Positions 1,919-58,117 of a stretch of DNA of 64,000 bases are shown piece after piece. Position 1 is the stretch's first letter, and each line of letters begins with the position of its first letter. The notes under the pieces are model-generated. The model was not told the DNA's origin. It saw only the letters and a program-made list of their open reading frames with translations, and did no database searches. This DNA is from a virus. The stretch spans positions 123,451-187,450 of IMG/VR virus record IMGVR_UViG_3300008267_000004; one strand, given 5' to 3'. The position numbers and the translations under genes were made by a program.

Positions 1919-2251
1919 CTATCCTCTTGTTTTTTCGTATTCTAAATATTCTGCCACTGTCTCTATAGCTTCTGTAGCAACTGCAATTTTCTCTTGAACC
2001 CAAGGTTCTAAATCATCTTCATCATTTACTAACTTAGATAGCATTGAGGCGTGTTTCATTAAGTTATAAACATTACTTCTAGCCATACGACCATCTGAGT
2101 CGTAGCTTTCTTTATCGGAGTCTCCTAATTTTAGTTTTACTACACCACCTCCAGTGAATGGCATATCTCCACTTAACATTCCCATATCTGCCATACATTC
2201 TTGTATTTCTTCAGATATAATCTTTTTTAAAGATTCTTTGGTTATTTTCAT
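1919..2251 (-). CDS. MKIT-tagged small protein, predicted capsid cargo
   Basis: 110 residues beginning 'MKITKESLKKIISEEIQE', one of a recurring family of amphipathic N-terminal tags in this genome, with a possible cut after I-S-E. The remainder is short, helical at the C-terminus and without known motifs. It lies in a run of tagged genes. Packaging into the head is inferred from the tag and from the T4 internal-protein precedent. Confidence 0.65.
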   Translation of the reverse strand: MKITKESLKKIISEEIQECMADMGMLSGDMPFTGGGVVKLKLGDSDKESYDSDGRMARSNVYNLMKHASMLSKLVNDEDDLEPWVQEKIAVATEAIETVAEYLEYEKTRG

Positions 2252-2260
2252 ATTTTTTCC

Positions 2261-4282
2261 TCAATTATCAAATATTACAAATACAGGATTTGATGGATTA
2301 CTTTGTGGAAGTATACCAATATTTCCTACATGAGAATCATGTAAATAATTTCCAGTTTTTATAAACAAATAAATTGTCTTTGCTAAACTCACAAATTCAT
2401 TTTTTGTTAAAGCACTTGGATACATTTTCTTTTTTTGCATAAAATCTTTAAATATAGAAGCGATCTTTTCTTGGCTAAAAAGAAAAAACTTTTTACTATA
2501 TTTCTGCTCTATTTCTATCATCATATCCTTACACAATTCATAGTCAGATTCAGCATCATCTGCAGATCTTCTAGTTTCTTCCATAAAATCTGATAATGGA
2601 ATTACTCTAGCCATTTCTACATAATTTACTTGCTCTCCAGCATCAAGTTTTATTTCACCCTCGTCATATATTGGAAGATCTGTAATATTACCAGCACTTG
2701 AGAACATTCTTGCTTTTGTTCCCTTATACCAATACATATCACCACCGCCAGAATAGTCATCCTGATATAGTTTTAATATATGCCCATTATCTAGTAGGTA
2801 GATAAAACCTTTTGTTCCAGCTGTTAACAACTCTTGAATTGGCTTACTTAACACAGGGCATTTTTTTACTAACTCAACGGCATCTTGTAAACTTAAATTA
2901 AAATATTTAAGAATATTTTTAGTTCTTTTTCTTTGCCCAAGCTTTAAAATATCATATTCTTCTACATCGCCAATTAGTTTAAAAAAATTTTCTTTTTGTA
3001 TATCCGATAATGAATCAAATAGTGGATTAGATTGGTTTTCTCCAATTGGACCAAATGATTCGCCCGGTGCAATTGTCGCGCCGCCAGCTTGTTTACTTCT
3101 TTTTCTATAAACTTTAGCTACGCCACCAGTTCTATCTTTACTGTACGGATATTTAGAGGTTATTTTAGCATCTTTATATGGATTTGGCAAGGACTTTTTT
3201 TTACTTAAATTTTTTGGAGATTTTAATTTTGCTAATTTTTTTTCTTGCATTTTTTTCTTTAGAGCTAATCTCTTTTTCTTGACTTTCTCTAAAAATTCAG
3301 AAATCTCCTCTGATAACTCCTCTGTGCCTTGTAGTTCTTTTTCAAAGATTTTATGTATCTTTGCATTCATACTTCTGGACTTTTCCTGTTGTAGTTGTGC
3401 CCATTCAAGATCTAGCTTGTTTCCTGGTTTTCTTTTCGCGTGTTTAGATCTTGAATCTGCTCTTATTTTCCAATAATTACTTAAAGTGGCTTCCCCTAAT
3501 AAATTTTTAGTATTTCTGACTAACATCTCATTGAATGTTTCATCAGAAATTCCTATCTCCCTATCTGTTTTTTTAAACCTGTTAGATGTTATTAATCGAT
3601 CAAAACCTTCTGATTTAGAAGGTTCTTCAAAGTTTTTATATATTTCTTCGTAATCTGATTTAGATACTCCCCTATCAAATTCTGGACCGTATCTTTCTAG
3701 GAAGTCTTTTGCTCTTAATTCCGCTGATCTTAAAATTTGTTTTTCATATCCCTTAAAAGGAAATACAACACCAATTATATTAAAATCGTCCCTGCCAGAT
3801 ATATAATCAATTGTAGTTTTTCTATTGCTTCTAGTCATATGTATTGCATCTACTACAATATTTTTTACATCAGAAGAAATAGCATTTTTTAATTCTGAAT
3901 CATATATGGCATTTAATTCTTCACCAGCAGCATGAGCGTTTTCAAACGCTAATTCTTCTACTTCCTTTCCCTTACTCTTACTGAATCTTGTATATTTTGT
4001 TAATCTTCCAAGTTTCTTTTTTTCTGGATGCTCTTCACCAACTTCAAGATCTTGTGTTGGAACCTTAAAAATATCCTTGTTTGCTAGATTATATTTTGGA
4101 AATATAACATCCTCTATTATTTCATCTTTAGATATAATAATTCTATTGTCCTTAACATTGTTCTCTATCCAGCTAGATTTTCCTACAGCTGGCGGTCCTA
4201 TTAAGACAAAGAAATTTCTTTTAGAAGAATTAGATTCTTCTTTTTCTTCTAATAGCCATTTCTTGAATTTAAATATATTCAC
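2261..4282 (-). CDS. Tagged bifunctional protein: P-loop kinase plus protein-kinase-like domain
   Basis: 673 residues, GTG start 7 bases after GGAGG. An N-terminal tag 'MNIFKFKKWLLEE' offers an L-L-E site. A zeta/AAA_33-type P-loop kinase follows, with Walker A GPPAVGKSS at 29-37. A long Lys-rich linker (about 270-400) leads to a kinase-like lobe: 'GFIYLLDNGHILKLY' (beta3-like Lys), catalytic-loop-like HDSHVGN (648-654, as in APH/ABC1 kinases) and a final IFD metal-binding-type Asp. The protein stops one residue after that Asp. This is probably an injected effector that phosphorylates a host target or small molecule; the target is unknown. Confidence 0.65.
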   Translation of the reverse strand: MNIFKFKKWLLEEKEESNSSKRNFFVLIGPPAVGKSSWIENNVKDNRIIISKDEIIEDVIFPKYNLANKDIFKVPTQDLEVGEEHPEKKKLGRLTKYTRFSKSKGKEVEELAFENAHAAGEELNAIYDSELKNAISSDVKNIVVDAIHMTRSNRKTTIDYISGRDDFNIIGVVFPFKGYEKQILRSAELRAKDFLERYGPEFDRGVSKSDYEEIYKNFEEPSKSEGFDRLITSNRFKKTDREIGISDETFNEMLVRNTKNLLGEATLSNYWKIRADSRSKHAKRKPGNKLDLEWAQLQQEKSRSMNAKIHKIFEKELQGTEELSEEISEFLEKVKKKRLALKKKMQEKKLAKLKSPKNLSKKKSLPNPYKDAKITSKYPYSKDRTGGVAKVYRKRSKQAGGATIAPGESFGPIGENQSNPLFDSLSDIQKENFFKLIGDVEEYDILKLGQRKRTKNILKYFNLSLQDAVELVKKCPVLSKPIQELLTAGTKGFIYLLDNGHILKLYQDDYSGGGDMYWYKGTKARMFSSAGNITDLPIYDEGEIKLDAGEQVNYVEMARVIPLSDFMEETRRSADDAESDYELCKDMMIEIEQKYSKKFFLFSQEKIASIFKDFMQKKKMYPSALTKNEFVSLAKTIYLFIKTGNYLHDSHVGNIGILPQSNPSNPVFVIFDN

Positions 4283-4284
4283 TA

Positions 4285-4905
4285 CTAACCTCCAACTTTA
4301 ACTTTCATAATCAAGAAGCCGTCTTTAACCTCTGAACTAACAGTACTTGCTTTTCCGCTTGATACTCTGGATCCACCAACATCTCTACCTCTTACCGCAT
4401 CAACAGCCATAGCTCTTGCGTCCATTTGAGCAGACTCTAATCCCATGCTGCCACCTCTTACAGGAACTTTTACGGTTACTACATTTCCATCTACCTTAAG
4501 GACTTCACCTCTTCCAGCTTTTTTGGCAGGGGCTGATGGTTTGACAGAGCCAGCATCAGATCCTAAATCTGCTCCTGATGTTGGTTTTACACCAACTGTT
4601 ACAAATTTTCCTGGGCCGTATCTACTATCTAGTAGATCGTTCATAACATCTCTAACTTCGGAAGCGTTTGCACCTAAATCATCAACAACAATTGAACGAG
4701 TAGATCCATCTTTAACATTCTTGACGGTTACTTTTACTGGTTCTGCTTCTGCTGTATTGGCAGCACCGTAACCCATGCTCATAAGAGCGCCAGCAAACAA
4801 TGCTGCGATGTTTTGTTTTAAACCTTCGAATAGTTCTTCTTGCTCCAACTCTTTTTTAATTTCTTCTGATACAATTTGATTGAGTTTTGATACTGTAATT
4901 TTCAT
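4285..4905 (-). CDS. MKIT-tagged protein with hydrophobic N-terminal segment
   Basis: 206 residues. The tag 'MKITVSKLNQIVSEEIKKEL' is followed by a hydrophobic stretch (about 29-50) that could be a weak membrane segment, then a Gly/Ser/Ala-rich beta domain. The protein ends in a Gly-Gly. No family is recognised. The tag and its place between two tagged kinases suggest head cargo. The hydrophobic part could help membrane passage during injection, which is inference. Confidence 0.6.
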   Translation of the reverse strand: MKITVSKLNQIVSEEIKKELEQEELFEGLKQNIAALFAGALMSMGYGAANTAEAEPVKVTVKNVKDGSTRSIVVDDLGANASEVRDVMNDLLDSRYGPGKFVTVGVKPTSGADLGSDAGSVKPSAPAKKAGRGEVLKVDGNVVTVKVPVRGGSMGLESAQMDARAMAVDAVRGRDVGGSRVSSGKASTVSSEVKDGFLIMKVKVGG

Positions 4906-4914
4906 TTTTTTCTC

Positions 4915-5280
4915 CTACTGTAAGGTTAATAAGTACTTTAGTTTGTTAACTTCTGCTAACATTTCATCTCTTATATTCATAAGATCACTATCGCAACTAG
5001 GATCTAGTATAGCACTGATTCCAATTAACATTTCACAACATGCGTTACAAAATTCTATTGGTTTTAATTCTTGTAAATTTTTTAACTCCAAACTACAAGA
5101 TTCATCTAAAATAAATCTATCATGTTTTCCCATGCATATTTCAACATATTTGTCTATAAGGCCACTTAATGTATCATAAGTAGCACCAAAAGCTTGGTGA
5201 CGAGCATAAGATTTTGTTTGCCAATGAAATATTCTTAACTGCTGTTCCATTTGTATAAGTGAAATAATTATCTTATCCAT
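4915..5280 (-). CDS. Ferritin/Dps-like small protein (DUF5856 type)
   Basis: 121 residues, mostly helical. 'LRIFHWQTKSYARHQAFG' and then 'LIDKYVEICMGK' match the first two helices of Dps-like phage proteins, known as DUF5856 as far as I recall. The His and acidic residues could bind iron. The region 'CSLELKNLQELKPIEFCNACCEM' is unusually Cys-rich. It may protect DNA or handle iron. Its start overlaps the stop of the upstream kinase by one base. Confidence 0.6.
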   Translation of the reverse strand: MDKIIISLIQMEQQLRIFHWQTKSYARHQAFGATYDTLSGLIDKYVEICMGKHDRFILDESCSLELKNLQELKPIEFCNACCEMLIGISAILDPSCDSDLMNIRDEMLAEVNKLKYLLTLQ

Positions 5281-6299
5281 TAAAAATCCCCTGTTTCAGA
5301 ACCATATTTATCTTTATCTGCCATATCTTGCAATTCTAGCTCTTCTGCATATTCAGGAATTTCTTTTGCTAGTGCTTGCTTGTATTCTTCTACTGACATA
5401 TTTTCAAATTCTGCCTCGGAAGGTAAAAATCCATAAATTTGAGGGTATTCATCTGCAAATCTACTTTCAACATCATCATAAATATTTTCTTTCTCTCGCT
5501 GTTTTTTTTGAAAATCTGTAATTTCGGATATTTTTTGCTCTATAAGAGTTCTTATATACTTTTTAGTAATTTTTTGTTTATTCTCTTTCATGGAATCAGC
5601 TACCTTTTTTAAGCTTGGGACATTATCAACAGAAACCACTTCATCAAAACCTTCTGCGGCTTGATCAACTTTTTGAAAACTTTTAAACATTCTATCAAAT
5701 GCAGCTTCTGGGATTGTTTTTGATTTACCTGCTGCTTTTGCTTCGGCTGCGCGTTTTGCTGCCACACTCTTAATTATATCTTCTGCGCCTTCAAAGTTAA
5801 ACACCACAGCGACTTTGTGATAATCACTTTCAGACCCTTCAATTGCTTTTAAAGCTCCTTTTCTAGCTCCTGGAGTCATATTAGTCATATCGACAACAAT
5901 AACTGGTTGTCCTTTTGCTTCCTGAACTCTGCCATTGAACCTTCCAAAGACTCTTCCGTTTGCCTCAATAACTTTGTCATAGGCGGTTGGATTAAAGGCT
6001 GCATGTGGAGGAGATTTAATCACTGTACCATATTTTTCACTAACATCTCCCTCTTTAGCATCTGGTGGAGGAAGCATAAACATATCATCATATGTCCATC
6101 CATAGTCAGCTGCAATTGCCTCTACAATATCATCTCTATTAATAATATATGGATCTTGATTTCCAAAAGTTTTTTGAATCCAAGTAGATTTTCCAACAGA
6201 TGGTGGACCAACTAAAACGTAAATTTTCTTTTTATCCAATTCTTCATTTAGCGTAGAAAACTTCCTCCAGTTTTCCATAATAATTTTCATATTTTTCAT
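5280..6299 (-). CDS. MENWRKF-tagged P-loop kinase
   Basis: 339 residues. The N-terminal tag 'MENWRKFSTLNEE' is followed by Walker A GPPSVGKST (31-39). The kinase core resembles zeta-toxin/polynucleotide-kinase P-loop enzymes and is paralogous to the N-terminus of the 673-residue protein. A second tag-like stretch 'KITKKYIRTLIEQKISEI' sits inside the protein at about 243-260, ahead of an acidic C-terminal domain. Likely cargo enzyme acting on nucleotides or RNA ends; the substrate is unknown. Confidence 0.7.
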   Translation of the reverse strand: MKNMKIIMENWRKFSTLNEELDKKKIYVLVGPPSVGKSTWIQKTFGNQDPYIINRDDIVEAIAADYGWTYDDMFMLPPPDAKEGDVSEKYGTVIKSPPHAAFNPTAYDKVIEANGRVFGRFNGRVQEAKGQPVIVVDMTNMTPGARKGALKAIEGSESDYHKVAVVFNFEGAEDIIKSVAAKRAAEAKAAGKSKTIPEAAFDRMFKSFQKVDQAAEGFDEVVSVDNVPSLKKVADSMKENKQKITKKYIRTLIEQKISEITDFQKKQREKENIYDDVESRFADEYPQIYGFLPSEAEFENMSVEEYKQALAKEIPEYAEELELQDMADKDKYGSETGDF

Positions 6300-6323
6300 A
6301 TTATTATCCTATATTATATCTTA

Positions 6324-6734
6324 TTACCACTTCCTACATGACCAATATCTAGCTTTTGTTCTTGGACCTGGATTAGCGCAGTTATGACGAGCACGAAATG
6401 ATTTACGACGTTTTGGATTACTTTTTTTAATACGCATATTCTTATCGCCAAAGTTTACTTTTTTAACGTTTCCGGTTGAAGGGTCGCGTACAAATACTTT
6501 AAACTTTTTTACATCTCCCCTCATTGGTTTTCCTAGAGGAACAGTACGTCCTTGATACTTTGCTTCTTCAAGTTTATCTGGGCATCCGCATGTTAATTCT
6601 TCATATAGACATGCTTCGCAAACAAGAGTGCCGTCTTCTAAGGTAGAATCATTATTGCCTAGTTGTTCAACAATTAATGCTTCATGGATGCTTTCTTTTA
6701 CGACTTTTCTTAAGTCTGATTGTGAAATTTTCAT
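6324..6734 (-). CDS. MKIS-tagged Cys-containing protein with basic C-terminal domain
   Basis: 136 residues. The tag 'MKISQSDLRKVVKESIHEAL' is followed by a cysteine cluster ('CEACLYEELTCGC', about 38-50, possibly zinc-binding). A basic C-terminal domain carries 'NFGDKNMRIKK' and 'FRARHNCANPGPRTKARYWSC'. That C-terminal block looks like a conserved module of marine-phage and large-virus hypothetical proteins. Nucleic-acid binding is plausible. Confidence 0.6.
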   Translation of the reverse strand: MKISQSDLRKVVKESIHEALIVEQLGNNDSTLEDGTLVCEACLYEELTCGCPDKLEEAKYQGRTVPLGKPMRGDVKKFKVFVRDPSTGNVKKVNFGDKNMRIKKSNPKRRKSFRARHNCANPGPRTKARYWSCRKW

Positions 6735-7330
6735 TCTTGTTCCTCTTTTTTAGTTTTCCAAGATACTCTTTTTGAGCTTTTTTTCTGACTAGCCCCTTTT
6801 CTGTTACAAGCACTTGGAGTAGGACGACAGGCCGGATATTTACTTCTTTTTTCACCGTCACTTCTGCCACAGGTTTTACAAGTTTTTCGACCAGTCTTAG
6901 GATTAGTCCTACAGGTATTACAATCTACCCATCCTTTACTTTTACCCTTGCCGCCCTTACGAGCAAACCATCCATGAAGACCTTGAGATTTTTCTTTATC
7001 AAAAGTGCCTTCATCCAGTTCTAACTCTAGAGTTTCATCTACCTCTTCATTTGCTTTTTTTTTACGTCCTACTTTACCTTTACGGCAACGAACAATAAAT
7101 CCTGAAGCATATGCTGAAGGGAATACATCATATTTTTGTTTGGCTAAATGATAACATCTATCTTTTTTTTCATAAATAACACTTTCATCTAAGTTAGAGT
7201 CTTCTTCCATTCCAACGTATTCTAAACGATTATCACCAGCAGAGTCTATCTCTCCCGCTCCTCGTCGTAAATCATCATTTTGTTTATTTAACTCTAAAAC
7301 TCTTTTACGTGAAATTTTTACTTTTATCAT
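6731..7330 (-). CDS. Cys/Lys-rich protein with DUF5872-like domain
   Basis: About 199 residues from the ATG at 7328-7330. An earlier in-frame ATG at 7348 sits in the upstream terminator tail, and neither start has a Shine-Dalgarno site. Two conserved blocks are visible: 'CYHLAKQKYDVFPSAYASG' near residue 60, and a C-terminal zinc-like block 'WFARKGGKGKSKGWVDC...CKTC...CRPTPSAC'. These blocks recur in phage and giant-virus proteins of unknown role. It overlaps the next tagged gene by 4 bases. Probably nucleic-acid binding. Confidence 0.6.
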   Translation of the reverse strand: MIKVKISRKRVLELNKQNDDLRRGAGEIDSAGDNRLEYVGMEEDSNLDESVIYEKKDRCYHLAKQKYDVFPSAYASGFIVRCRKGKVGRKKKANEEVDETLELELDEGTFDKEKSQGLHGWFARKGGKGKSKGWVDCNTCRTNPKTGRKTCKTCGRSDGEKRSKYPACRPTPSACNRKGASQKKSSKRVSWKTKKEEQE

Positions 7331-7335
7331 ACGAA

Positions 7336-7343
7336 TAAATAGT
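7336..7343 (-). promoter_or_regulatory. ACTATTTA motif copy 1
   Basis: ACTATTTATTC on the coding strand, directly before the ATG of the Cys/Lys-rich gene and just after the Hsp20 terminator. It is one of eight copies found at gene junctions. Its role is inferred. Confidence 0.35.
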
Positions 7344-7350
7344 AACATTA

Positions 7351-7854: not shown

Positions 7855-7856
7855 GA

Positions 7857-9520: not shown

Positions 9521-11098
9521 TTATACTTCAATAATAGCATGAGAAGTTGTTAATAAAGTTGAGGCAGCAGATACAGCATTTTGTAATGCACATCTTGTAA
9601 CTTTTGTTGGATCTACAATACCTTCTTCAATTAAATCAACATAAGACCTACTAACAAAATCATAACCAACCAAAGGGAGATCGGAAATATATAATACCTG
9701 ATGAACTATAACGTCTGGGCTTTCATCGCAGTTCTTAGAAAGTGTTTTTATTGGCTCGTAACAGGCTTTTTTAATTATTTCTACACCAAATTTTTGATCT
9801 TCATTATCCAGTTCTACTTCTTTTTCTAGTTCAAATGAACATCTCAATAGTGCCAATCCACCTCCAGGTAAAATACCCTCTTGTTGTGCGCTGCGTACAG
9901 CTTCTAAAGCATCTTCTATGCGATGCTTTCTTTCAGTCATATCTACTTCCGTAGAACCACCAACTCTTATAATTGCAATACCCGCAACTAAACGCGTAAT
10001 TCTATCTTGAATAGATTCACACTCTTTTACATCACTACTTTGTTCAATTTCTGCTTTAAGAGAGTCTATCTTTTTTTGTACTTCCTCATAGTTTCCGCCG
10101 CCGCCGACTACCGTTGTCCAGTTTTTCAAAGATTCAATAGTCTTACAGCTTCCCATATGACTTCTTTTTACTTCTTTTAATGACATACCACTTTCTCTAG
10201 AAATAAATGTCGCACCTGTTGCCAACGCTAAATCTTTTAGCAGGTTTCTTCTTTCTTCACCGTATTTAGGCGCTTTGATGGCAGCGACTTTCATGCTGCC
10301 TCTTTTAAGGTTTAGAACCATAGCAGCTAAAGATTGTCCCTCTACATTTTCTGCAAAAATAATAAAAGGTTTATTCTCTCTTGCAGCAATTTCCAGTGCT
10401 GGCATTATATCGTCAAGGTTGTCAATTGAGTAATCAGTTACTAATAGTATAGCATTTTCATATCTCATTGCCCCTCGACGTGGATCAGTTACAAACTCTG
10501 CTGATACAAAGCCGGATGGAATTTGAAACCCCTCAACAACATCTAAAGTTGTATCTACAGATTTGCCTTCCTCAATTGAAATAGCGCCATCTTTTCCTAC
10601 TTTATCAACAGCCATAGCAATAAGTTTACCAATCTGTTTATCACCATTGGCAGATATTGTTGCGATATGTTCTATGTCTTCTATACTAGATACTTCTTTT
10701 GACATGCGATGCAATCTAGATACAATCGCAGTTACTGCTTTATCCATCCCACGTTTAAGTTCTACTGGGCTTGCTCCGGCTGTAATGTATTTTTGAGCGT
10801 TTTGCATAACTGCTCTAGCTAGGACAGTAGCAGTTGTAGTTCCATCTCCAGCTTCTATAGCAGTAACCTCAGAAGCTTGTTTTAGCACTTGCGCTCCAAC
10901 ATTCTCAAAAGGATTTTCATATTCAATATTTTTAGCTACGGTAACTCCATCTTTTGTAATTATAGGGTTTCTACCCTTAAGATGTATTACTACGTTTCTT
11001 CCTTTAGGGCCGAGAGTTGAACTGACAGCATCTGCCAGTTTGTTGACTCCATCTAATATTGCTTTATTTAAAGAAGTTCCATTATCATATACTTTCAA
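9521..11098 (-). CDS. groL: Phage GroEL-type chaperonin
   Basis: 525 residues, starting at TTG after an AAGGG site because no ATG is available in frame. Group I chaperonin throughout: 'SSTLGPKGRNVV', 'ITKDGVTVAK', the ATP motif 'GDGTTTATVLAR' and 'RIEDAL' with the hydrolysis Asp. The Gly-Gly-Met tail of bacterial GroEL is absent, as in other phage GroELs. A cluster of extra Gly ('VVGGGGNYEE') and several Cys are unusual. It probably folds capsid or other virion proteins, either alone or with the GroES-like protein at 28404-28706. Confidence 0.95.
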   Translation of the reverse strand: MKVYDNGTSLNKAILDGVNKLADAVSSTLGPKGRNVVIHLKGRNPIITKDGVTVAKNIEYENPFENVGAQVLKQASEVTAIEAGDGTTTATVLARAVMQNAQKYITAGASPVELKRGMDKAVTAIVSRLHRMSKEVSSIEDIEHIATISANGDKQIGKLIAMAVDKVGKDGAISIEEGKSVDTTLDVVEGFQIPSGFVSAEFVTDPRRGAMRYENAILLVTDYSIDNLDDIMPALEIAARENKPFIIFAENVEGQSLAAMVLNLKRGSMKVAAIKAPKYGEERRNLLKDLALATGATFISRESGMSLKEVKRSHMGSCKTIESLKNWTTVVGGGGNYEEVQKKIDSLKAEIEQSSDVKECESIQDRITRLVAGIAIIRVGGSTEVDMTERKHRIEDALEAVRSAQQEGILPGGGLALLRCSFELEKEVELDNEDQKFGVEIIKKACYEPIKTLSKNCDESPDVIVHQVLYISDLPLVGYDFVSRSYVDLIEEGIVDPTKVTRCALQNAVSAASTLLTTSHAIIEV

Positions 11099-11117: not shown

Positions 11118-11588
11118 CTATTTTGAAAAAACTTCTTCTACTGTAGCATCTACAGTAAAAGGTTCAATTGATTTCCAATCTTTAATTTTTGCCGCTAAAA
11201 ACGGCTTTACTGTTTCATCTCTTAACATGGCTGTTATATGAGGCACTCCACTTTGTACGTACATATCCGTATCAACTTTCCAAGCGGCTATTCCAAGCTT
11301 TTCATCTACTCCAAAGGCAACTATCTTTAGTTTAGTTGGTACATTTAACTCTATAGGAGTTTTAGATTTATTTGCTGGGGAAGGTACTATAGTCATGTGA
11401 TGATTTAATTGTTCATTCCCATGAGAACCTACAGAGGAGTCTTTCCATCCTTCTACCCTAAGTCCTAATTCATCTAGCTTAGAATTTAAATTTTCTACAT
11501 CTTGTACAACAGCACCTGTATATAACGCTACTTTAGCATCTTCTTTTAAGAAATTTCTCCAACCTTCCATTAATTTATCTAAACTCAT
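11118..11588 (-). CDS. MEGWRNFL-tagged 2H phosphoesterase-like protein
   Basis: 156 residues. The N-terminal tag 'MEGWRNFLKED' belongs to the MENWRxFL family, with a possible cut after L-K-E. Two H-x-T motifs (H64-M-T66 and H117-I-T119), each in a beta strand, are the signature of 2H phosphoesterases such as LigT/CPDase and phage Acb1-type cyclic-nucleotide hydrolases. Cleavage of cyclic oligonucleotides or 2',3'-cyclic RNA ends is plausible. The substrate cannot be told from sequence. It lies just upstream of groEL. Confidence 0.65.
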   Translation of the reverse strand: MSLDKLMEGWRNFLKEDAKVALYTGAVVQDVENLNSKLDELGLRVEGWKDSSVGSHGNEQLNHHMTIVPSPANKSKTPIELNVPTKLKIVAFGVDEKLGIAAWKVDTDMYVQSGVPHITAMLRDETVKPFLAAKIKDWKSIEPFTVDATVEEVFSK

Positions 11589-12845: not shown

Positions 12846-14627
12846 TTATTTTTTTACTTGCTGTTGAACAAGCGCAGTTTTAACATCAATATTTTTTGCA
12901 GCTTGTTGGGCTGCTGTTGCGTTAGCATCTTCAACCATACCATTTGCAAAATATGCATTAATATTAGTAGTTAGCACATTTAAACTTTCAAAAATTTCAT
13001 ATACTTCTGTATTAATAGCATCTTTTAGCTTATTCAATAAGCCTTCTATTGACGTTCTACCGACAGTAAGGGTAGCAACTTTTTGCTCTTGTCCTGCTGC
13101 AGCAATAAGATCAAACACTTCTAGTTTAGTAAAACCAAACTGCATGATATCTAAATATCCATAAGTATTCTTTAAAGCTTTCTTTTTTAATTCTTGATTT
13201 GCGTCTACAGAATTTAAATATGCTACAGATTCTTCTGTTGAAGCAAAAAGAATACCAGGCATTAGCTCTTCACTAGCTGGTGCTTTTGATTTTGTTGTCT
13301 TTTTTTCAGTTAGAAGATTGGATGCTGTAAATAAATTTCTCTTTCTAGCTTCTTCTAAAGCTTGAGGAGTAGCTTCGCCTTTTACTATAGCAAAATCTTT
13401 TGCTTTTTCATACAAGTCAATAAAGAAATTTGCATAAGAAGGCCATGCTCTTTTTTCACCAGTTATATCACTTTTAAACACTTTTCTAGCGGACGATGCC
13501 ATGTCTGGATTATCTAATAGACCTTGTTCGGCAAAACCAGTAAATAAATTATTTACAAATGTCTTTCCTGGGCTACTCTTTCCAAGGACACCTAGCTTAT
13601 CTTCTTTGCCGCCTTCAAAAAATTTAGGTTCTGACATCTCGCTTTGTTTTAGGATTTTATACCACTGTTCAAAATTTTCATCTTTTGCATACTCTGATTT
13701 TCGAACTTGTGCATCGAACCAATCTTCTATTTCTTCTTGAGATTTATAAGTCTTCTTAAGGTGTGAATAGTCAGTTCCATTTTTTATAAATGACACTGGT
13801 AGTCTTATACACAATCTGGAGCTTTTACCTCCTAGAGACATAACATTTTCTATGTTTTTTAAATCTATATCAAATTGGTGTACATCTATAGTACCTGTCA
13901 TTTTTAATGCTTCACCGCTTAGACTCTTCACAGCTACAACATATCTAATAAAAGGCTTAGATGGATTTTTTGGACTAATCATATCATTAACTAAATCCGA
14001 AAAACTTCCGCCTACGTGTACTTTTTTATCCGAATATAGTTTTAAGCTTATTCCTATTCCATCGCTTGTTTTTAAGTCTGCAATCGTACCACTGTTTGTA
14101 GGAACCTGCTCACCGCCCAATAAAACACCTAAAAATGATTCAAAAGCGAAACCGGCTGCAGCAGCATTAAAGTTTGTTATAATAGTGGTTAATGTTTTAA
14201 TAAACACTAGATAAGACATAATTTGTTGAATTCTAGTAGTTCTGGAAGATTTATCTAGGATTCCTTTTTCCATCAGGGCATCTAGATCAGCATTATAAAA
14301 CTCACTTATATTTTTAAACTTTTCTGCAAGATCTGCGCCTTTGATATTGTTTAAGTACTGTTCTAGCTGTTTTCTCTGCTCAGAAGAAACTTTAATGGTT
14401 GAACCAGCCTCTGATTCAACAAGCGATGACCAACCAAGTTCAGAAACTGAGATTTCCGGGATCGAACTAAATTTAATTCCAAAATTTTTTGGAATAGGCG
14501 CAACTGCTTCTTCGTTTAATAGTTTATTAAACTCTTCTCTAACTAAATATTCAAGAAGTCCTGTAGTAATGACATTTTCCTTTTTAGCAAAAAAGGATTC
14601 AACAATTTGATTCATATCTTTTTTCAT
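12846..14627 (-). CDS. Large hypothetical protein with restriction-endonuclease-like core
   Basis: 593 residues. 'FAFESFLGVLLGG' (about 160), 'GTIADLKTSDG' and 'GISLKLYSDKK' place Glu, Asp and SxK in the order of a PD-(D/E)xK core. Similar proteins accompany marine myovirus virion genes. The N-terminal region has several LxE sites ('KLLNEEAVAP', about 34-43). It may be a virion-associated nuclease or a structural cargo protein. It is adjacent to, and probably works with, the 415-residue protein that shares the motif. Confidence 0.55.
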   Translation of the reverse strand: MKKDMNQIVESFFAKKENVITTGLLEYLVREEFNKLLNEEAVAPIPKNFGIKFSSIPEISVSELGWSSLVESEAGSTIKVSSEQRKQLEQYLNNIKGADLAEKFKNISEFYNADLDALMEKGILDKSSRTTRIQQIMSYLVFIKTLTTIITNFNAAAAGFAFESFLGVLLGGEQVPTNSGTIADLKTSDGIGISLKLYSDKKVHVGGSFSDLVNDMISPKNPSKPFIRYVVAVKSLSGEALKMTGTIDVHQFDIDLKNIENVMSLGGKSSRLCIRLPVSFIKNGTDYSHLKKTYKSQEEIEDWFDAQVRKSEYAKDENFEQWYKILKQSEMSEPKFFEGGKEDKLGVLGKSSPGKTFVNNLFTGFAEQGLLDNPDMASSARKVFKSDITGEKRAWPSYANFFIDLYEKAKDFAIVKGEATPQALEEARKRNLFTASNLLTEKKTTKSKAPASEELMPGILFASTEESVAYLNSVDANQELKKKALKNTYGYLDIMQFGFTKLEVFDLIAAAGQEQKVATLTVGRTSIEGLLNKLKDAINTEVYEIFESLNVLTTNINAYFANGMVEDANATAAQQAAKNIDVKTALVQQQVKK

Positions 14628-16364: not shown

Positions 16365-16637
16365 TTAATCTTCTAAAACATCTTTTAGAACATTCTGTAC
16401 CATACCTTCTGGCAGATTTTCCATAAACGCTTCTAATGCTTCTCTTGGAATTTGAGATTCCTCTAAAACTTCTAGAAAATCTATAATCGCATCTTTAGAA
16501 ACGAACTCTGCATCAGCATCTTCTGCATATCCATAGGCATAGCTTTCTACCAAAGTCTCTGTGTGATCTTTTTCTTTTTCAACACGTTGGACTTCTTCTG
16601 CAATAATTTGCTTTAATTCGCCTCTTGTAATTTGCAT
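16365..16637 (-). CDS. MQIT-tagged small acidic protein
   Basis: 90 residues. The tag 'MQITRGELKQIIAEEVQRVE' has an I-A-E site. The rest is acidic and helical ('FLEVLEESQIPREALEAFME') with no known motif. It follows the large acidic/basic core-like protein with a 9-base gap, so both are probably head components or cargo. Confidence 0.6.
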   Translation of the reverse strand: MQITRGELKQIIAEEVQRVEKEKDHTETLVESYAYGYAEDADAEFVSKDAIIDFLEVLEESQIPREALEAFMENLPEGMVQNVLKDVLED

Positions 16638-16646: not shown

Positions 16647-17606
16647 TTATTTGTGTTTGTTGCTACCTTTTCCAGTCAAACCGCTGGTTTTCTTGTGAGT
16701 TGTTGTATGCCCACCAGAAGATTTTAGAGGTGTCATTTCATGACCACCTTCACCTTTTTTAGACCACTTCATATTCTTGTGTTTAGAATATAGTTTATCT
16801 TTATTCTTTCCCTTTGAAGCCAAACCAGAACCTGAAGATTTTCCATGTGTTACTTTGTGGCTTTTTTCTTCTTCTAGTTTCTTTTTCTTAGCTTCGGCTT
16901 CTTTTTTCTTTGCCTGCATTTTCTTCTTAACGTCTTTAGCTTTTTTATCTTCTGGTTTTTTCTTGGCTTCTGCTAATAATCTAGCAGTTACTCTGCGTAA
17001 TACATTTTCTACTAACTCAGATTTATTCATGAATCGAGATTCTTTTAGTTCTTCTTCATCCATCTCTTCTTCTTCATTCATTTCATCTTCTTCTTGATAC
17101 ATATCTTCTTCATTCATTTCATCTTCTTCGTCGCCTTCGCCATCTTCCTCATCGCCCATATCCATTTCGTCGTCGCCCATGTCTACATCGCCCATGTCGT
17201 CGTCATCCATGTCTACGTCAAACTCTCCACCTTCTTCGTCGTCTTCGACTGTTCCTTCAACGCCTAAAGCGTCTAGAACAGCTTGAACAACTCTTTTTGC
17301 GACCTCTGGAGATACGGCACCAGATTCTTCATCAGAAAAATCTGCTCCTTCATCATCTCCAAAATCCATATCCTCACCGTCTTCAGAATCTTCTTCATCT
17401 CCGCCTAAATCTAATTCTTCGGCTTCTTCTTGTGTATCCATATCTGGACGGCCATATTTTTTAGCCACTTCGCTTTCTTTCATTTCTTCTTCTTCGTTAT
17501 ATCCCGGTCCTGATTCACTTAAGAATCTGTCGGTTAGTGGCTCAAGATTTGCAAGTCTCATAAACTTGCGAATTGTTGATTCTTCTAGCAATTGTTTTTT
17601 ACTCAT
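16647..17606 (-). CDS. Acidic/basic two-part protein, predicted head core or internal protein
   Basis: 319 residues. The N-terminus 'LLEESTIRKFMRLANLEPL' followed by 'RFLSESG' is a conserved-looking tag. Residues about 60-190 are extremely acidic (Asp/Glu/Met-rich). A second helix ends in 'RLLAEAKKK', an L-A-E|A site. The last 100 residues are a Lys/Gly/Ser/His-rich basic tail. Cleavage would separate an acidic scaffold-like half from a DNA-binding half, as in T4 core and internal proteins. Upstream lie TATAAATA and ACTATTTA boxes. Function inferred. Confidence 0.6.
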   Translation of the reverse strand: MSKKQLLEESTIRKFMRLANLEPLTDRFLSESGPGYNEEEEMKESEVAKKYGRPDMDTQEEAEELDLGGDEEDSEDGEDMDFGDDEGADFSDEESGAVSPEVAKRVVQAVLDALGVEGTVEDDEEGGEFDVDMDDDDMGDVDMGDDEMDMGDEEDGEGDEEDEMNEEDMYQEEDEMNEEEEMDEEELKESRFMNKSELVENVLRRVTARLLAEAKKKPEDKKAKDVKKKMQAKKKEAEAKKKKLEEEKSHKVTHGKSSGSGLASKGKNKDKLYSKHKNMKWSKKGEGGHEMTPLKSSGGHTTTHKKTSGLTGKGSNKHK

Positions 17607-29098: not shown

Positions 29099-30127
29099 TT
29101 ATTTAACAAAAGCCCTTATATTATTCATCAAACTAAAAAATGCTGTTTTATACTGGGAAGGGTCGCCTGTTACATGTTTCTTTTTTAGTAATGCAGTTAC
29201 AATATCTTTTAGATGTTGAGCATCAACCTCACCAGTGTATCCAGCTTTTTTAAGCGCAGCTAATAATTCTGCTTTAGAATGAATAGCTGCTACTGTTTCT
29301 CTGCCAGCAAATTTTGCTGCTTCTTGCAAATATTGAGCACTTTGCTCTGCGGTCGCTTGTGTGGCATCAATTAAACTACCCATTCTGTCTAGAACCTCTG
29401 GCGATTTTAGAACCGCATCTGATTTTAAATGTTCATGCATGGCAGTAAACATATTATTAAATTCTGTCATATCTGACACATCAAATGTTTTCTTTGATCT
29501 TATAAATGCATCTAGTTTTTCTACCATCTGAGGAGAAAGATCTACTCCCATTTTATGCATAGCGGCTTTATTATGTAGTAAGTTTAGCATCGCTTGAGAA
29601 TCCGATGTTAATCTAACCTTTTCTCCATAATCGCTATAAACAACATCAGCTTTTGCAGTTCCAACCATAGAATTATATACTAAATATGCTATAGCTGCCC
29701 AAAAAGCCACTTTAACAACCAGTGCAACTATACTATAAAGAGTTGGATAATTTTGTTTAAATTTTTCAACTAAACTAAAGACTTTTTGTATTAAGCCAAA
29801 GACAGCACCTGCACCCTTAATAGCTAATTGTAGCACTTTAATGCCCATTTCGTTAATTTTATTAACGACTGCATCTTTTATTCCCTTTAACGCTCCAACA
29901 GCTTTTGTTAGGATTCCTTCATTTATAAATTTTAAATCATTTTCTATAGATTCTGCTAATATCTTAATATATTCTTCTCTTGAAATTCTGTTTAATGATA
30001 ATTCTTCATTTAGAACATCTAACTTGAAAGAGCCAAATTTTGTTTCTAACAATAAATCAGTAGATTTTTTTTCTACATCATTTGAAAAATTTCTCCAATT
30101 TTCCATGATAAGCTGCATATCTCTCAT
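29099..30127 (-). CDS. MENWRNF-tagged membrane protein, predicted ejected protein
   Basis: 342 residues. The N-terminal tag 'MENWRNFSNDVEKKS' is followed by several LxE-type sites, including 'DLLLETKF' and 'FINEGIL'. Residues about 80-120 form amphipathic helices, then one hydrophobic segment 'LYSIVALVVKVAFWAAIAYLVY' crosses a membrane. The C-terminal 180 residues are helical and soluble. The tag plus membrane segment suggests a protein packed in the head and inserted into the host membrane during infection. It is a monocistronic unit between two terminators. Confidence 0.6.
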   Translation of the reverse strand: MRDMQLIMENWRNFSNDVEKKSTDLLLETKFGSFKLDVLNEELSLNRISREEYIKILAESIENDLKFINEGILTKAVGALKGIKDAVVNKINEMGIKVLQLAIKGAGAVFGLIQKVFSLVEKFKQNYPTLYSIVALVVKVAFWAAIAYLVYNSMVGTAKADVVYSDYGEKVRLTSDSQAMLNLLHNKAAMHKMGVDLSPQMVEKLDAFIRSKKTFDVSDMTEFNNMFTAMHEHLKSDAVLKSPEVLDRMGSLIDATQATAEQSAQYLQEAAKFAGRETVAAIHSKAELLAALKKAGYTGEVDAQHLKDIVTALLKKKHVTGDPSQYKTAFFSLMNNIRAFVK

Positions 30128-48123: not shown

Positions 48124-50904
48124 CTATCCTGCTATTAAAGTTCCTGTTTTAATTTCTATACCTGGAGCTACTTTTTTAACTAGTTCTGCAAACATTCTTT
48201 CATCAACTTTAATTACATATGATCCGCCACCTCCAGAATTAGCACCAGCACTTGTCATCTTGCTTCTTGCATCGCCAACAATTTCAACTATCTTAGATAA
48301 TAATTTAACAACAGGATCATCTTCCACTTCATTTTCTGAAACACTTACAACATATTCCTTTGCTTCTTTTAATAATCTAATTGTTGGGTCTATATTATCG
48401 GAAGATATTTGTTTTATCTCACTTAATACTTGTTTTAAGTTATCATTAGAGACTTTAAATCCTATTGCTTTTTCTGCTGGATATTCGTCATACGCTTCAT
48501 TAATATTCTCAATCGCACTAGCTACTGCTTTTGACGCTAACCATGCAGGACCGGCAGCAATTGCCAATCCAGCAAAAGATAATGCTAAGGCACCAATTCC
48601 ACCAGCTAATATCCAAACACCAGCTGAAAGGGCTAATATTGTTGGAACTATACCATCAACTTGAACTAATTCAACAAATTTTTCTACCAGTAGTGATAAA
48701 CCAGCAGCAGCTACTCCAATACCTATACCTATCATAAGTACTGCAGCACCAAATGCCAACATTGGTATCGCTGCAACGCCAGCTGTAGTTGCAACTGCAA
48801 TAAGAGCTGTAGCCATTAAATACATAACGCCGACAAGTAATCCTATTGCAACAACTGCTCCTATTATTTGTTCACCAGATAAACCACTAAACGCTTTAAC
48901 TAATTCAGCCATACCAGTAGCTGCTAACCAAACAGCACCACCTATTTCTAACATTGCAAAGCCAAATGCTATAGCAGGTTTAATTAATGGCTCTAATGCT
49001 TTTCCTATAGCGTCAAAAGCCATAGGTAAAGTAGTAGAAAGAGTATCGGTAAGAATAGGAGAATGTGGAACTGATAACACATCATGAACATCATGGAAAG
49101 ATTCCCACAACATCATTATAAGAGGTATTAAACTAATTAAAGTGCCTATAAATCCACCCATAGATATGTTAGATAATGATTTTGCGCCTGCTTTTACAGA
49201 AGAGAAAAATCCCGTACCAGCTGCTCTAGCAGTTGAAAATGCAGTTCTAGCCGCAGACATATTTGTTCTTATTGCTGAATATGAAGATTTCATACTTTCC
49301 CAAACACTTGTACGCATATCATTAAATGCTGGTATTAATTTTGAAGAAATCATTTTTGCTAGCAATAACCCAACTATAATTATACCTGCACGACCACCTG
49401 TTTTATCATTAAATTCCATAAATTTTGTTACAACCGCATCTATAACTTTAACAAAAGGCATAACAACACCAGTAACAACCTGAAACATCGCATGAATTTT
49501 TCCCATGACATCAACTGCTTGTTCTTGCAATTGATTCATTTGTTTCTGGGATGCCTCTTCTTTTTCTCTAGCCTTTCTAACTTGATCTGTCTCTTGACCT
49601 AACATTTTCATCATTTCTGCTTCATTACCACCAGCGAGAATATTAGCAAGAGCCTGTCTTTCTTGTTTGTTCATTGTTGCTACGTTTTTTCCTGTAGCTT
49701 CCATACTTCTTTTAATAATTTCTGTACGTTGGCTTTCGTCTGCATTTAGAAGTTCTATTGAATTTAAATAATCTCCACCCATGAATGCATTAAACTTACC
49801 AGCAGCAGATGCAGCACCTTCAAAGGTATCCATCTGTTTTCCAACAATGTTCATCAATGAACTAACTTCCATACCTAAAGCTTTAGATTGTTTTGCTAGA
49901 TTTTCAAATACTGTTACAGATTGTTTACCTTGTGCTGCCAAAGAGGGTCCAACTGCTGCATAATCTGCTAACATTTTTTTCGTAGATATACCAGAAGCAT
50001 ATGCCACTCTAGATAATTTATTTGTAACCGCAGCTGCCTCTGCACCTGTAAATCCAAGAGCACTCTTTAGGTGATTTAATATTGGTCCTTGTTCTGAATA
50101 AGAAGCGCCAAGTTTTTCTAGCTGTGCGGCTTGACCAACCATTATTTGTTTATTTCTTTCAGATTCATTTGAGAAAGAAGTCATAGAATCTCTTAAGCCG
50201 ATATTTGCGGCCATTAATTCTTTCGCTCCTATACCAAATCTTGTAAATGTAGTTCGTACCTCACCGTTTAAACTTCTTGTTTGTCCTACAAATATACCTA
50301 AAGATTTATTGGATTCTCTAAAAAAATCACTAAAAGGAGCATATGTATCATCTATTGTAGCCCCAGAAAGAACCAACTCTTTACGCATTTGCATAAATTC
50401 ACCAGCAATTTGACCTAAACCCTGTGGTGAAAGCATGGACATAGCAGTTTGTATGCCCATAAAATTTCCTATGGACTCCACCATTTGCTGGTTTAATTGT
50501 TTTGAATCTTCTAATTCTTTCTTTCTATCTCTTGTTTCTTGTTCTTTTACTTTGAGTCGTTTAAGTTCTAGCTCATATTCTTCTAGAGATAAATCATGCG
50601 ACTCTAATCGTTGCTTTAAAATTTGTTTATCTAAATCAAATTGTAGTTTTGCTATCTTTTCTTTATTTTTTTCTATTTTTTGAATATCTTCTTCTAATAC
50701 AGCCGTTCTCTTTAACGCTTCATTTTTTTCTTTTAAAGCTTCTATCTGGGCTTCTATAGCTTTAGAATTGACAGGCGCAGAAGGTGTTGCCCCAGCTGGA
50801 GGTGTGGTAGATCCCCCGCCGTCGTCAGAATCGGAAGATCTTTTATCTGCTAAGTTTTCTATAGCCTTTAATAGGTCTTGGAGTAATTTTGAATCTTCAG
50901 CCAT
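48124..50904 (-). CDS. Tape measure protein
   Basis: 926 residues. An N-terminal coiled coil, a long helical middle ('GVQTAMSML'-like segments such as 'MLSPQGLGQIAGEFMQMRK') and at least four hydrophobic helices around 590-800 ('AVVAIGLLVGVMYLMATALI', 'AVLMIGIGIGVAAAGL') are typical of tape measure proteins, which set tail length and reach the host membrane. It lies directly after the frameshifted chaperone region, the canonical order. About 926 residues fits a tail near 140 nm by the usual 0.15 nm per residue. Confidence 0.85.
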   Translation of the reverse strand: MAEDSKLLQDLLKAIENLADKRSSDSDDGGGSTTPPAGATPSAPVNSKAIEAQIEALKEKNEALKRTAVLEEDIQKIEKNKEKIAKLQFDLDKQILKQRLESHDLSLEEYELELKRLKVKEQETRDRKKELEDSKQLNQQMVESIGNFMGIQTAMSMLSPQGLGQIAGEFMQMRKELVLSGATIDDTYAPFSDFFRESNKSLGIFVGQTRSLNGEVRTTFTRFGIGAKELMAANIGLRDSMTSFSNESERNKQIMVGQAAQLEKLGASYSEQGPILNHLKSALGFTGAEAAAVTNKLSRVAYASGISTKKMLADYAAVGPSLAAQGKQSVTVFENLAKQSKALGMEVSSLMNIVGKQMDTFEGAASAAGKFNAFMGGDYLNSIELLNADESQRTEIIKRSMEATGKNVATMNKQERQALANILAGGNEAEMMKMLGQETDQVRKAREKEEASQKQMNQLQEQAVDVMGKIHAMFQVVTGVVMPFVKVIDAVVTKFMEFNDKTGGRAGIIIVGLLLAKMISSKLIPAFNDMRTSVWESMKSSYSAIRTNMSAARTAFSTARAAGTGFFSSVKAGAKSLSNISMGGFIGTLISLIPLIMMLWESFHDVHDVLSVPHSPILTDTLSTTLPMAFDAIGKALEPLIKPAIAFGFAMLEIGGAVWLAATGMAELVKAFSGLSGEQIIGAVVAIGLLVGVMYLMATALIAVATTAGVAAIPMLAFGAAVLMIGIGIGVAAAGLSLLVEKFVELVQVDGIVPTILALSAGVWILAGGIGALALSFAGLAIAAGPAWLASKAVASAIENINEAYDEYPAEKAIGFKVSNDNLKQVLSEIKQISSDNIDPTIRLLKEAKEYVVSVSENEVEDDPVVKLLSKIVEIVGDARSKMTSAGANSGGGGSYVIKVDERMFAELVKKVAPGIEIKTGTLIAG

Positions 50905-56349: not shown

Positions 56350-56372
56350 TAACTGTGTTTGCAAATGTCATT

Positions 56373-56876
56373 TTATTTTGCATTAAACACATTCTCTCTT
56401 GCTCTAATACACTTAGCATCAATTTGAAAAGAGGTATCTTGACCGAATAAAACTCTAGACTCATTTAGTGTTACTATTTCGTAGTATAAACCATCATATA
56501 GAAGAAAATCTCCTTCTCTTACATATAAATCTTGATCTTCTACTAATCTACGTTTATGAAATTTAACAGTTAATGATATTCTTCTATCGATACCAAATGA
56601 ATCTAAATTTGTTCCTGAACCTTCCCAAGTTACTAATACAAATACCCTAACAGGCGAAAGAAATGTTTTTTGCATTGCTTCACCATATACTGGGTGGTAA
56701 TATGTATTTTCTCTGCTAATTGGATAATATATAATTTCTTGACCTATAACTCTTTCCAGAAGTTCATCATTTACCTGTTTTACTAAATTTCTTTCTTTCT
56801 GCCCAAGAAATAAAGGTGGGGGAGGTGAATCTGGTGGTATTTCTACTAAATTTTCTTCTTTCTTTTTTCTAGCCAT
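56373..56876 (-). CDS. Neck / head-tail connector-like structural protein
   Basis: 167 residues. Lys-rich start, then 'PVYGEAMQKTFLSPVRVFVL' and 'DQDLYVREGDFLLYDGLYYEIV', the pattern of small head-closure or tail-terminator proteins in marine myoviruses. Position between sheath and other neck genes agrees. The exact T4 counterpart is uncertain. Confidence 0.65.
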   Translation of the reverse strand: MARKKKEENLVEIPPDSPPPPLFLGQKERNLVKQVNDELLERVIGQEIIYYPISRENTYYHPVYGEAMQKTFLSPVRVFVLVTWEGSGTNLDSFGIDRRISLTVKFHKRRLVEDQDLYVREGDFLLYDGLYYEIVTLNESRVLFGQDTSFQIDAKCIRARENVFNAK

Positions 56877-56878
56877 CT

Positions 56879-58117
56879 TTATACTCCCAATTTATCTATA
56901 GCATCTTGAATAATTTGATTATGATCAAAAGCTAATTTGGTTGATAAGGCTTTTTCTACTGAAACCCATCCCGCTTCTTCTGCGTCATCTCTTCCCGCTA
57001 CTTTTTGATTAATATCTTCCGGTAATAAAACTGCAAATGCAGTAGTTCTTGACCAAGATTCTTCGTTATCTCTAGGATCCCTATTATTTCCTTCGTATTT
57101 TCCAACTTGGATCATCGATCTATTTAAAGAAGGAATATATAAACCAGTTTCTTCTGTTAATTCTCTAAAAGCTGCTTGTCTAGCAGACTCTCTATCATCT
57201 TTCCATTGTTTTCCTTTGGGCTGATTTGTGTCATGAAAACCACCAGGTAATGCATAAAATCCTGGATACGCTTTACTTGAGGTATTTCTTTTTATTAGTA
57301 ATATCTTTAGAGTATCGTCAAATTTTTTAAATACAGCTATATCGACAGTTGGATTAGCACCTGGTCTCCAGAATGGCTGTTCATCACTTCCCCAATATTC
57401 TACAGGTTTAGATATTTGACCATATGATCTATTCATATACCTTCCAATTAATTCGTAGGAAGAAGGGACTAAAAATACTGCCTGTGAAGACTGTAAAATA
57501 TGAATATTTGAACCTTTATCAACTACAGCATCGTATCCCATATCTCTTAAAATTTTATTCCATATAATAGTAGATCTTTTTGTATATTGACCAACTCTAG
57601 ATTGATCTGTTTCTGCTATCGCTTGAGATACCCCCCAAATTTCTGATGCTTGATTGTCATATTTATAAAGATCTGCATTTTGTTTAACATCTTCTACAAA
57701 CTCTTCAAAATTTTTTCCCACCTTCTTCTTTATACTCTTTTCATATACATCTTTTAAGAAGTTTATATCTTTTGAATAATTTGCATAAGACGATAAATTT
57801 AACACTCTATCTGTATTTAATCTTATTAGATTAACATATTTTCTATCATCTCCAAAAAAACGATCTCCAGATACCCAATCTTGCCATAAATCTTTTAAAT
57901 TATAAGCATAAACGCCAATTGGAGTTGAAAATCTATTATTTGGGTTAACACCTATTTTTTCTAAATCTGTAAAACTGACAAAATAATTATCATCATCAGA
58001 AAATCTTTCTAGCCTCTTTAAAATAGGGATATTTACATTCTCTGGCCTCTTTTTCTTTTCTGTAAGAAAATTTCTCCAATTAGAAAATAAATCATAAACT
58101 TGTTTTTCTTTAGTCAT
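56879..58117 (-). CDS. NWRNFL-tagged protein with unknown N-domain and C-terminal NUDIX hydrolase
   Basis: 412 residues. Tag at 6-22 including 'SNWRNFLTEKKK' with an L-T-E site. Residues 40-250 form an unassigned domain with 'NRFSTPIGVYAYNL' and 'MGYDAVVDKGSNIHILQSSQ', which recalls ADP-ribosyltransferase-like domains of phage polyvalent proteins, weakly. The C-terminal NUDIX domain has 'FYALPGGFH' and E310-(x7)-REL-x-EE-x-GL. It may hydrolyse NAD-, ADP-ribose- or cap-type substrates. A tagged enzyme in the virion module is a strong cargo candidate. Confidence 0.7.
   Translation of the reverse strand: MTKEKQVYDLFSNWRNFLTEKKKRPENVNIPILKRLERFSDDDNYFVSFTDLEKIGVNPNNRFSTPIGVYAYNLKDLWQDWVSGDRFFGDDRKYVNLIRLNTDRVLNLSSYANYSKDINFLKDVYEKSIKKKVGKNFEEFVEDVKQNADLYKYDNQASEIWGVSQAIAETDQSRVGQYTKRSTIIWNKILRDMGYDAVVDKGSNIHILQSSQAVFLVPSSYELIGRYMNRSYGQISKPVEYWGSDEQPFWRPGANPTVDIAVFKKFDDTLKILLIKRNTSSKAYPGFYALPGGFHDTNQPKGKQWKDDRESARQAAFRELTEETGLYIPSLNRSMIQVGKYEGNNRDPRDNEESWSRTTAFAVLLPEDINQKVAGRDDAEEAGWVSVEKALSTKLAFDHNQIIQDAIDKLGV

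Follow-up and report, generated by a model that had tools for sequence, protein, structure and literature searches.

The terminal 64 kilobases (kb) of the virus record IMGVR_UViG_3300008267_000004 (G000, 187,450 bases), referred to below as the window, encode nine proteins that begin with a short N-terminal tag, and two classes of such tags were distinguished: class I (MKITKxQLKQIIKEELxxLLxE) and class II ((M)KLIMENWRxFLxE). Both are probably cleavable capsid-targeting propeptides. The tag would dock each protein onto the prohead core late in infection, a gp21-type protease would cut after [LIVM]-x-E at the tag end, and the freed protein would remain in the head and be carried into the next host together with the DNA. 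Class II would then be a signal of the phage T4 type and class I an equivalent second signal of unrelated sequence, and the two could replace each other on a given cargo gene. The nine open reading frames (ORFs), described in a preliminary description of this DNA, are all present with the N-termini reported there, on the minus strand, and are named below by their first coordinate. The tags are as follows (scores are those of the tag profiles; the slash marks a possible cut):

2186..2251, minus strand: class I tag of ORF 1919-2251 (MKITKESLKKIISEEIQECMAD); score 40.2, sole site ISE14/E
4247..4282, minus strand: FKKWLLEE tag of ORF 2261-4282, the second P-loop kinase; possible site LLE12/E
4825..4905, minus strand: class I tag of ORF 4285-4905; score 30.7, possible site LFE27/G
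6243..6299, minus strand: class II tag of ORF 5280-6299, a P-loop kinase; score 32.8, possible site LNE19/E
6666..6734, minus strand: class I tag of ORF 6324-6734; score 7.0, which tops the controls, possible sites VKE14/S and IVE23/Q
11541..11588, minus strand: class II tag of ORF 11118-11588, 2H-like; score 24.0, possible site LKE16/D
16545..16637, minus strand: class I tag of ORF 16365-16637; score 31.1, possible sites IAE14/E and LVE31/S
30044..30127, minus strand: class II tag of ORF 29099-30127; score 34.3, possible site LLE28/T
58058..58117, minus strand: class II tag of ORF 56879-58117, NUDIX; score 8.8 against a shuffle maximum of 7.9, possible site LTE20/K

The tag profiles were trained on contigs other than that of the window and applied to 168 ORFs (those of the window and of 40 kb more of G000), with 8,400 shuffled N-termini and 1,036 internal windows as controls. 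The near kin known at that point were left out of the class II training set; the class I set was built without the window's record and includes one tag of G042, the record with the major capsid protein (gp23) nearest to that of the window (80% identity). The tags of ORFs 1919, 4285, 6324 and 16365 exceed every shuffled and internal control with the class I profile, as do those of 5280, 11118, 29099 and 56879 with the class II profile. ORF 2261-4282 was not recovered by the class II profile; its tag is supported by the kinship of the protein to the 5280 kinase (26% identity) and by similar starts, MNFKKWLLE or MKSFKSWLLE, on kinase relatives elsewhere. Thus eight of the nine tagged proteins are confirmed by independent profiles and the ninth only through its kinase relatives. 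Five of the nine ORFs are clustered in 1919-6734. The amphipathic character ascribed to the tags is weakly borne out: class I residues 5-18 have a mean helical moment of 0.425 as compared to 0.288 for the bodies, where 18% of the windows attain the class I mean. The class I profile also picks C1:14111-14353, C1:14367-14903 and C1:87163-87642 of G000, and the score of C1:1560-1835 (91 amino acids (aa), adjoining the gp21 gene, with the class I-like helix start MNISKSEILKLIKEVKEEMNE) barely tops the shuffles. A scan of the window's own record with a class II-like pattern gave one chance site only. Residues 6-30 of the window NUDIX protein, i.e. its tag region, align weakly (E 0.002) with phrog_13235, a 43-position family without annotation that is not recorded as a tag. 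By eye, a class I-like stretch (EYLVREEFNKLLNEEA) is also seen about 25 residues from the start of a 593-aa protein of the window (12846-14627).

The class I sample was reduced from 175 sites to 156 complete ones, to 149 after collapsing of alike bodies and to 144 with a 60-aa minimum. Several columns that were free in the search pattern proved conserved (K5, Q7, K/R9, Q/R/K10, K/R13 and L/I16), and the information content stops at about residue 22. At this tag end a [LIVM]xE site with its Glu at residues 19-24 is present in 92 of the 144 tags, compared with 261 of 2265 body windows (p 2.6e-45), and the residue that follows is Ala, Gly or Ser in 43 of these 92 cases as against 66 of 283 body sites (p 2.4e-5). 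The residue after the IxE of position 14, in contrast, is Glu in 135 of 144 tags and never Ala, Gly or Ser. Since the small residue follows the second site and not the first, class I is probably cut near E21/22 rather than at E14, where the preliminary description had placed the cut; cutting at both sites is possible. Among the four class I tags of the window, only that of ORF 6324 has a second site within residues 19-24 (IVE23/Q).

The class II sample comprised 127 sites, of which 99 were non-redundant and 88 remained with a 60-aa minimum and near kin removed. The column counts were anchored on KLIMENWR alone, so that W4 is fixed by the anchor; the free columns F/Y7 (82/99), L/V/I8 (71/99) and E10 (65/99) are conserved, and little is conserved beyond them. 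The E10 site is present in 49 of 88 tags (body windows: 275 of 17373), with Ala, Gly or Ser as the next residue in 18 of these 49 as against 49 of 276 (p 0.003). Both classes are therefore enriched in the I/L/V-x-E ends of the preliminary description, which are absent from the expected place in a part of the tags. The usual start lies four codons further up (MKLIMENWR...): the nearest upstream Met is four codons off in 73 of 99 cases, and a Shine-Dalgarno (SD)-like site is found ahead of the first Met in 33 of 95 and ahead of the second in 0 of 95.

In the T4 IPIII signal, residues 4 and 7 act in targeting and residues 8 and 10 in processing, according to mutagenesis (PMC9026906); a Glu-to-Asp change at IPIII position 10 is reported to permit packaging but prevent the cut. 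IPII and IPIII of the T4 record start with MKTYQEFIAE and IPI with MKTFKEFTSTTTPVSTITE. Class II has the layout of the T4 signal because it shows the same order, aromatic, aromatic, L/I and E, at positions 4, 7, 8 and 10. The displaced sites of 29099 (LLE28/T) and 5280 (LNE19/E) are comparable to that of T4 IPI. Unlike the T4 signal, class II usually starts four residues further up (MKLI). Class I differs more: its consensus has Thr4 and Gln7 in place of the aromatic pair and a longer L/I/I helix start, so that it was not filed as a T4-type signal but only as working like one. Judged by sequence, class II would thus join the kind of signal known from T4, and class I would apply the same principle in a variant form.

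The tags are widespread in IMG/VR. Class I occurs there in at least 120 stretches with at least 175 sites (reversed pattern: 1) and class II in at least 119 stretches with at least 124 sites (reversed pattern: 8); several class II sites among the matches listed are plain chance, lying inside other genes. The sets of tagged and control records described below consist of the first stretches found. As many as 16, 14, 11 and 10 strict class I copies were counted in individual virus records of 242-293 kb, while class I is absent from all seven random records of at least 100 kb, and the reversed class I control gave 0 in all 29 records searched. Strict class II sites are present also in 7 of 50 class I records. 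An SD-like site precedes 137 of 174 class I starts, compared with 70 of 526 internal Met codons, and the class I starts are genuine gene starts. Chance or composition as the source of the tags is ruled out by the reversed patterns and by the shuffled and internal controls. Among cellular genomes (257 Gb), class I was found in 18 stretches of 14 genomes, in some of them in arrays; gp21 was found in two of the eight such genomes searched, and in one of these, G161, the gp21 gene is on C13 and an array of 11 class I copies within ~7.6 kb on C25. Arrays of class I tags were seen on PBIO01000025.1 and NHDW01000006.1, which are filed under bacterial metagenome-assembled genomes and are probably phage contigs. 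The uncultured LR756508.1 (484 kb) has four class I-like starts within 1.6 kb (189254-190898), and it gave the single match (E 6) in a tblastn search of isolates with the 22-aa class I consensus. A third motif, M-I-K-[IV]-K-I-S-x-K-R, was rejected as a general tag since it was found in only 4 stretches, and two near-kin contigs account for three of these; window ORF 6731-7348 and L611:5934-6872 have the common start MIK[IV]KIS[RK]KR.

Head genes of the T4 type are present in the record. The gp21-type prohead protease is encoded at C1:1037-1468 of G000 (Peptidase_S77, 1.8e-31; 105.9 bits at a Pfam cut-off of 27), near the opposite end of the record from the window, which itself contains the following:

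59510..61309, minus strand: major capsid protein gp23 (phrog_138, 5.8e-69); prodomain end LLKE61/A62
61332..62705, minus strand: candidate scaffold, by position only, in the gp22 place adjoining gp23; no PHROG match
63087..63497, minus strand: candidate core protein of small size, the start of which weakly resembles class I; profile score -9.3, a value attained by 0.3% of shuffles

Circular permutation of the record would place gp21, core and gp23 in the usual order. The candidate scaffold may be the docking partner of the tags. The prodomain end of the window gp23 confirms that the capsid protein has the same kind of site as the tags. The gp23 prodomains of the window and of 29 tagged records (29 of 30 loci; the fragment L165 was left out) end in [LIVM]xE, followed by Ala or Ser in 24 of 30.

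At 599 aa the window gp23 is longer than that of T4 (521), and the closest capsid proteins of cultured phages are those of Flavobacterium phage immuto, Microcystis phage Mel-JY01 and Rhodothermus phage RM378. In the midpoint-rooted gp23 tree, T4 and P-HM2 are split from the other 34 rows (100/100), and the window groups with other tagged records away from these two, with long branches calling for caution. Such a placement would fit the Far-T4 group, as far as can be judged from these rows. The group is described as mostly uncultured (PMC4360716).

The gp21 family was found in 33 of 50 class I records and 20 of 35 class II records, compared with 4 of 45 random-pattern records (Fisher p 4.8e-9 and 3.2e-6, respectively), and gp23 was found in 31 of the 50 class I records. 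For records of at least 100 kb the counts are 19/21 (class I), 15/17 (class II) and 2/7 (random). The class I set comprises 50 records out of 56 with a length of 30 kb or more (the six shortest were omitted); the class II set comprises the record of L255 and 34 records with KLIMENWR, chosen by eye among those of at least 50 kb, and excludes two already counted as class I; the controls are the 45 records of at least 34.9 kb from 120 stretches. At the gp21 loci of class I records (17 of 30 resolved), a class I gene with a score above 18 lies no more than 700 bases upstream of gp21 in 6 of the 17. In L132 (the record of L012, 52 kb), a class I-tagged kinase gene stands directly before the gp21-type gene, with a slight overlap. 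The preliminary description had proposed that tag profiles would find many different domains behind the tags, only in phages with gp21/gp23-like heads. Many different domains were indeed found, and gp21 is far more frequent in tagged than in random records, with three large tagged records in which no gp21 was found.

The bodies behind the tags are diverse. The 355 tagged bodies form 230 families, 188 of which are single proteins. Among 122 tagged representatives, Pfam gave 16 families, each with one member except AAA_33 with two, and most representatives were unmatched; the families include an ADP-ribosyltransferase domain, S-adenosylmethionine lyase, a zeta-toxin-like kinase, DNA methylase, M23 peptidase and pentapeptide repeats. 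Alt, which is packaged by T4, is an ADP-ribosyltransferase as well (PMC9026906).

In the window, the NUDIX enzyme of ORF 56879-58117 is confirmed (Pfam 1.1e-12), as is the P-loop kinase of 5280 (AAA_33, 1.4e-11); the second kinase, 2261, matches AAA_33 below the cut-off (0.0018) but aligns with 5280. For the 2H phosphoesterase assigned to 11118, the HHMT and PHIT motifs, which we take to be those of this family, are conserved, and Pfam gave only DUF5810 at 0.051. The kinase-like fold and the membrane protein of the preliminary description could not be confirmed. In the structure model of the 5280 kinase the tag is a detached helix of low confidence (predicted local distance difference test, pLDDT, ~51 for residues 1-20 and 90 for residues 21-30), and the best Foldseek match is mammalian polynucleotide kinase (E 7.7e-6; TM-scores ~0.3). 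The single-sequence model of 29099 was uninformative (pLDDT 40.6). A search of the phages collection gave no match for the 2H-like protein or 29099 and two weak ones for the kinase. A neighbouring ORF without a tag, 1408-1917, gave a match (1.8e-18) to HAD_SAK_1, a domain found in RNA-repair proteins.

The strongest functional hint comes from the interchange of tags. Three body families hold both tag classes; the first of them, with seven proteins of loose similarity, may have been joined by chance. The class of tag on the 5280-type kinase and on the 11118-type 2H-like protein differs between phages, being I in some and II in others; the 2H-like relatives L209 and L296 bear class I. Among the kinase relatives with resolved starts (54; 8 of 62 loci are unresolved), 19 have class II, 5 have class I, 7 start directly at the enzyme and 23 have other extensions. 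Some of the latter are recurrent (RKANLLVEERY-, ELKRMKELAGL- and YRLYLAGIITES-like; L531, L533, L552, L553 and L556) and are perhaps further tag classes. Leaving out two records with unresolved starts and others that are too short or cut, gp21 was found in 5 of the 7 kinase records searched that have class I or II, in 3 of 15 with other extensions and in 0 of 4 with bare enzymes.

Capsid targeting as in T4, which the preliminary description had inferred, is thus favoured by the layout of class II, the link to gp21 and the LxE ends, whereas class I is not T4-type by sequence. Several observations weigh against targeting and cleavage of all these proteins. The cut site is at the expected place in just 49 of 88 class II and 92 of 144 class I tags, i.e. 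52 of the 144 have no second site, and ORF 1919 of the window has none past ISE14/E. No gp21 was found in G013 (122 kb, 5 tags), G014 (125 kb, 1 tag) and G121 (class II, 155 kb); these records of 122-155 kb may be either fragments or exceptions. Misses of gp21 can be due to fragments, since gp21 is missing from G130 (126,749 bases), which encodes proteins identical to those of window 11118 and 5280, but present in its kin G000 and G160. The association with gp21 could also come from shared ancestry. As gp21 is seen in so few of the kinase records with other extensions, other kinds of tags occur where gp21 is not seen. Even a class I search that tolerated one mismatch gave no site in immuto, Mel-JY01, RM378, P-HM2, HTVC008M and T4 (five isolates with a gp21-type annotation or known gp21, plus RM378).

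A role of most tagged proteins as components of the prohead core (compare T4 gp67 and gp68), to be cut and expelled with few or none delivered, is unlikely. Such a role would suit the small size of many class I proteins (median 113.5 aa), their occurrence in arrays, the class I-like start MNISKSEILKLIKEVKEEMNE of the 91-aa gene adjoining gp21 in G000 and the class I genes close upstream of gp21 in the resolved loci. The enzymes behind the tags (P-loop kinase, NUDIX, ADP-ribosyltransferase, S-adenosylmethionine lyase, methylase and M23) argue against it, however, and 230 body families are too many for a single structural role. Some small tagged proteins may nevertheless be core parts. Targeting elsewhere (to the membrane, the replication site or a host partner), with incidental LxE ends, is highly improbable: the class I helix is somewhat amphipathic and, by eye, a hydrophobic stretch directly follows the tag in 4285 and L035, but the sharp LxE end with its small residue, the same rule in gp23 and the association with gp21 would be left without explanation.

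We give hardly any credence to the shared starts being artefacts of DNA or descent, either diverged tandem duplicates or a translation-start element. The arrays of class I copies (as in G161) and the codon use at class I T4, E14 and E15, which is unlike that of the bodies, would agree with such an origin. Yet in tag pairs of the same contig identical residues use different codons in 229 of 689 cases, on which ground a pure DNA repeat was rejected; one diverged gene family was rejected because of the 230 body families, the unrelated Pfam domains and the tag swaps on one enzyme. Capsid targeting by both tags remains the preferred reading, in which docking, cleavage, packaging and injection of the tagged proteins are predicted steps, as is the effector role given to the cargo in the preliminary description.

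The capsid targeting signal of T4 was described in 1996 (Mullaney and Black, as cited in PMC9024508). Like the tags found here, the signals of IPI, IPII, IPIII and Alt, processed by gp21, are N-terminal and short, end in L/I-x-E and precede different bodies; T4 has a handful of targeted proteins, whereas a single record here has as many as 16 strict class I genes. In phage P1, DarB has an N-terminal head-loading signal, the first 30 residues being sufficient for a reporter, and the authors state that BLAST gave no consensus among the Dar N-termini (PMC9024508). The tags described here are likewise N-terminal but have a strong consensus common to many families. In the head proteins of SPN3US and phiKZ the prohead protease removes N-terminal propeptides, which are thought to target like those of T4; these are mostly longer than 100 residues, with AxE or SxE sites, and gp53 and gp54 of SPN3US have the first 15 residues in common (PMC5694885). 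Unlike the proteins described here, they are not known to have a short tag common to many families. A literature search that left subscription papers and bioRxiv mostly uncovered found no report of these tags or of capsid targeting sequences in metagenomes.

The motif ACTATTTA is a candidate late promoter of this phage. In the window it occurs 11 times on the coding strand and 0 times on the other, and in C1:1-20000 3 times against 1; the motif was chosen by enrichment, and the strand bias is therefore not independent. The sites on the minus strand (7343, 9519, 17652, 17693, 30167, 50942, 56349 and others) often lie 30-90 bases before genes, and the motif stands upstream of the tail sheath gene, 48124-50904, the tagged 29099, 16647 and 6731-7348 at the head of the tagged cluster. 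If it is a late promoter, the tagged genes would be expressed during head assembly. The late promoter of T4 is TATAAATA, which is not enriched here upstream of genes (2 of 81). Behind two copies of ACTATTTA, ORF 16647-17606 encodes a very acidic, then basic protein (start LLEESTIRKFMRLANL) with no PHROG match. By eye, the 525-aa product of window ORF 9521-11098 looks like a GroEL-type chaperonin, and about 20 small ORFs in L611:13898-19822 (G000 C1 ~93.9-99.8 kb) have a common KLGRIYK-type start and form an expanded family.

If the tags work like those of T4, the injected proteome of uncultured T4-related phages would be readable from sequence, and the list would include many families with no known function, whose action would fall at the onset of infection and may counter host defences. 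Class I would then be a second, unrelated signal for the T4-type head-loading route, and the tags could serve as new parts for phage-based protein delivery in strains used in the laboratory. We give about even chances to a broader proposal, according to which a T4-related, mostly uncultured branch of phages has a modular export code, where at least two interchangeable N-terminal signals load a fast-changing set of proteins for injection. If so, the load here would include RNA- and nucleotide-repair-like enzymes, present in the host ahead of all phage gene expression; that RNA repair counters tRNA-cutting defences is an idea. Under such a code the tags would mark injected proteins as signal peptides mark secreted ones.

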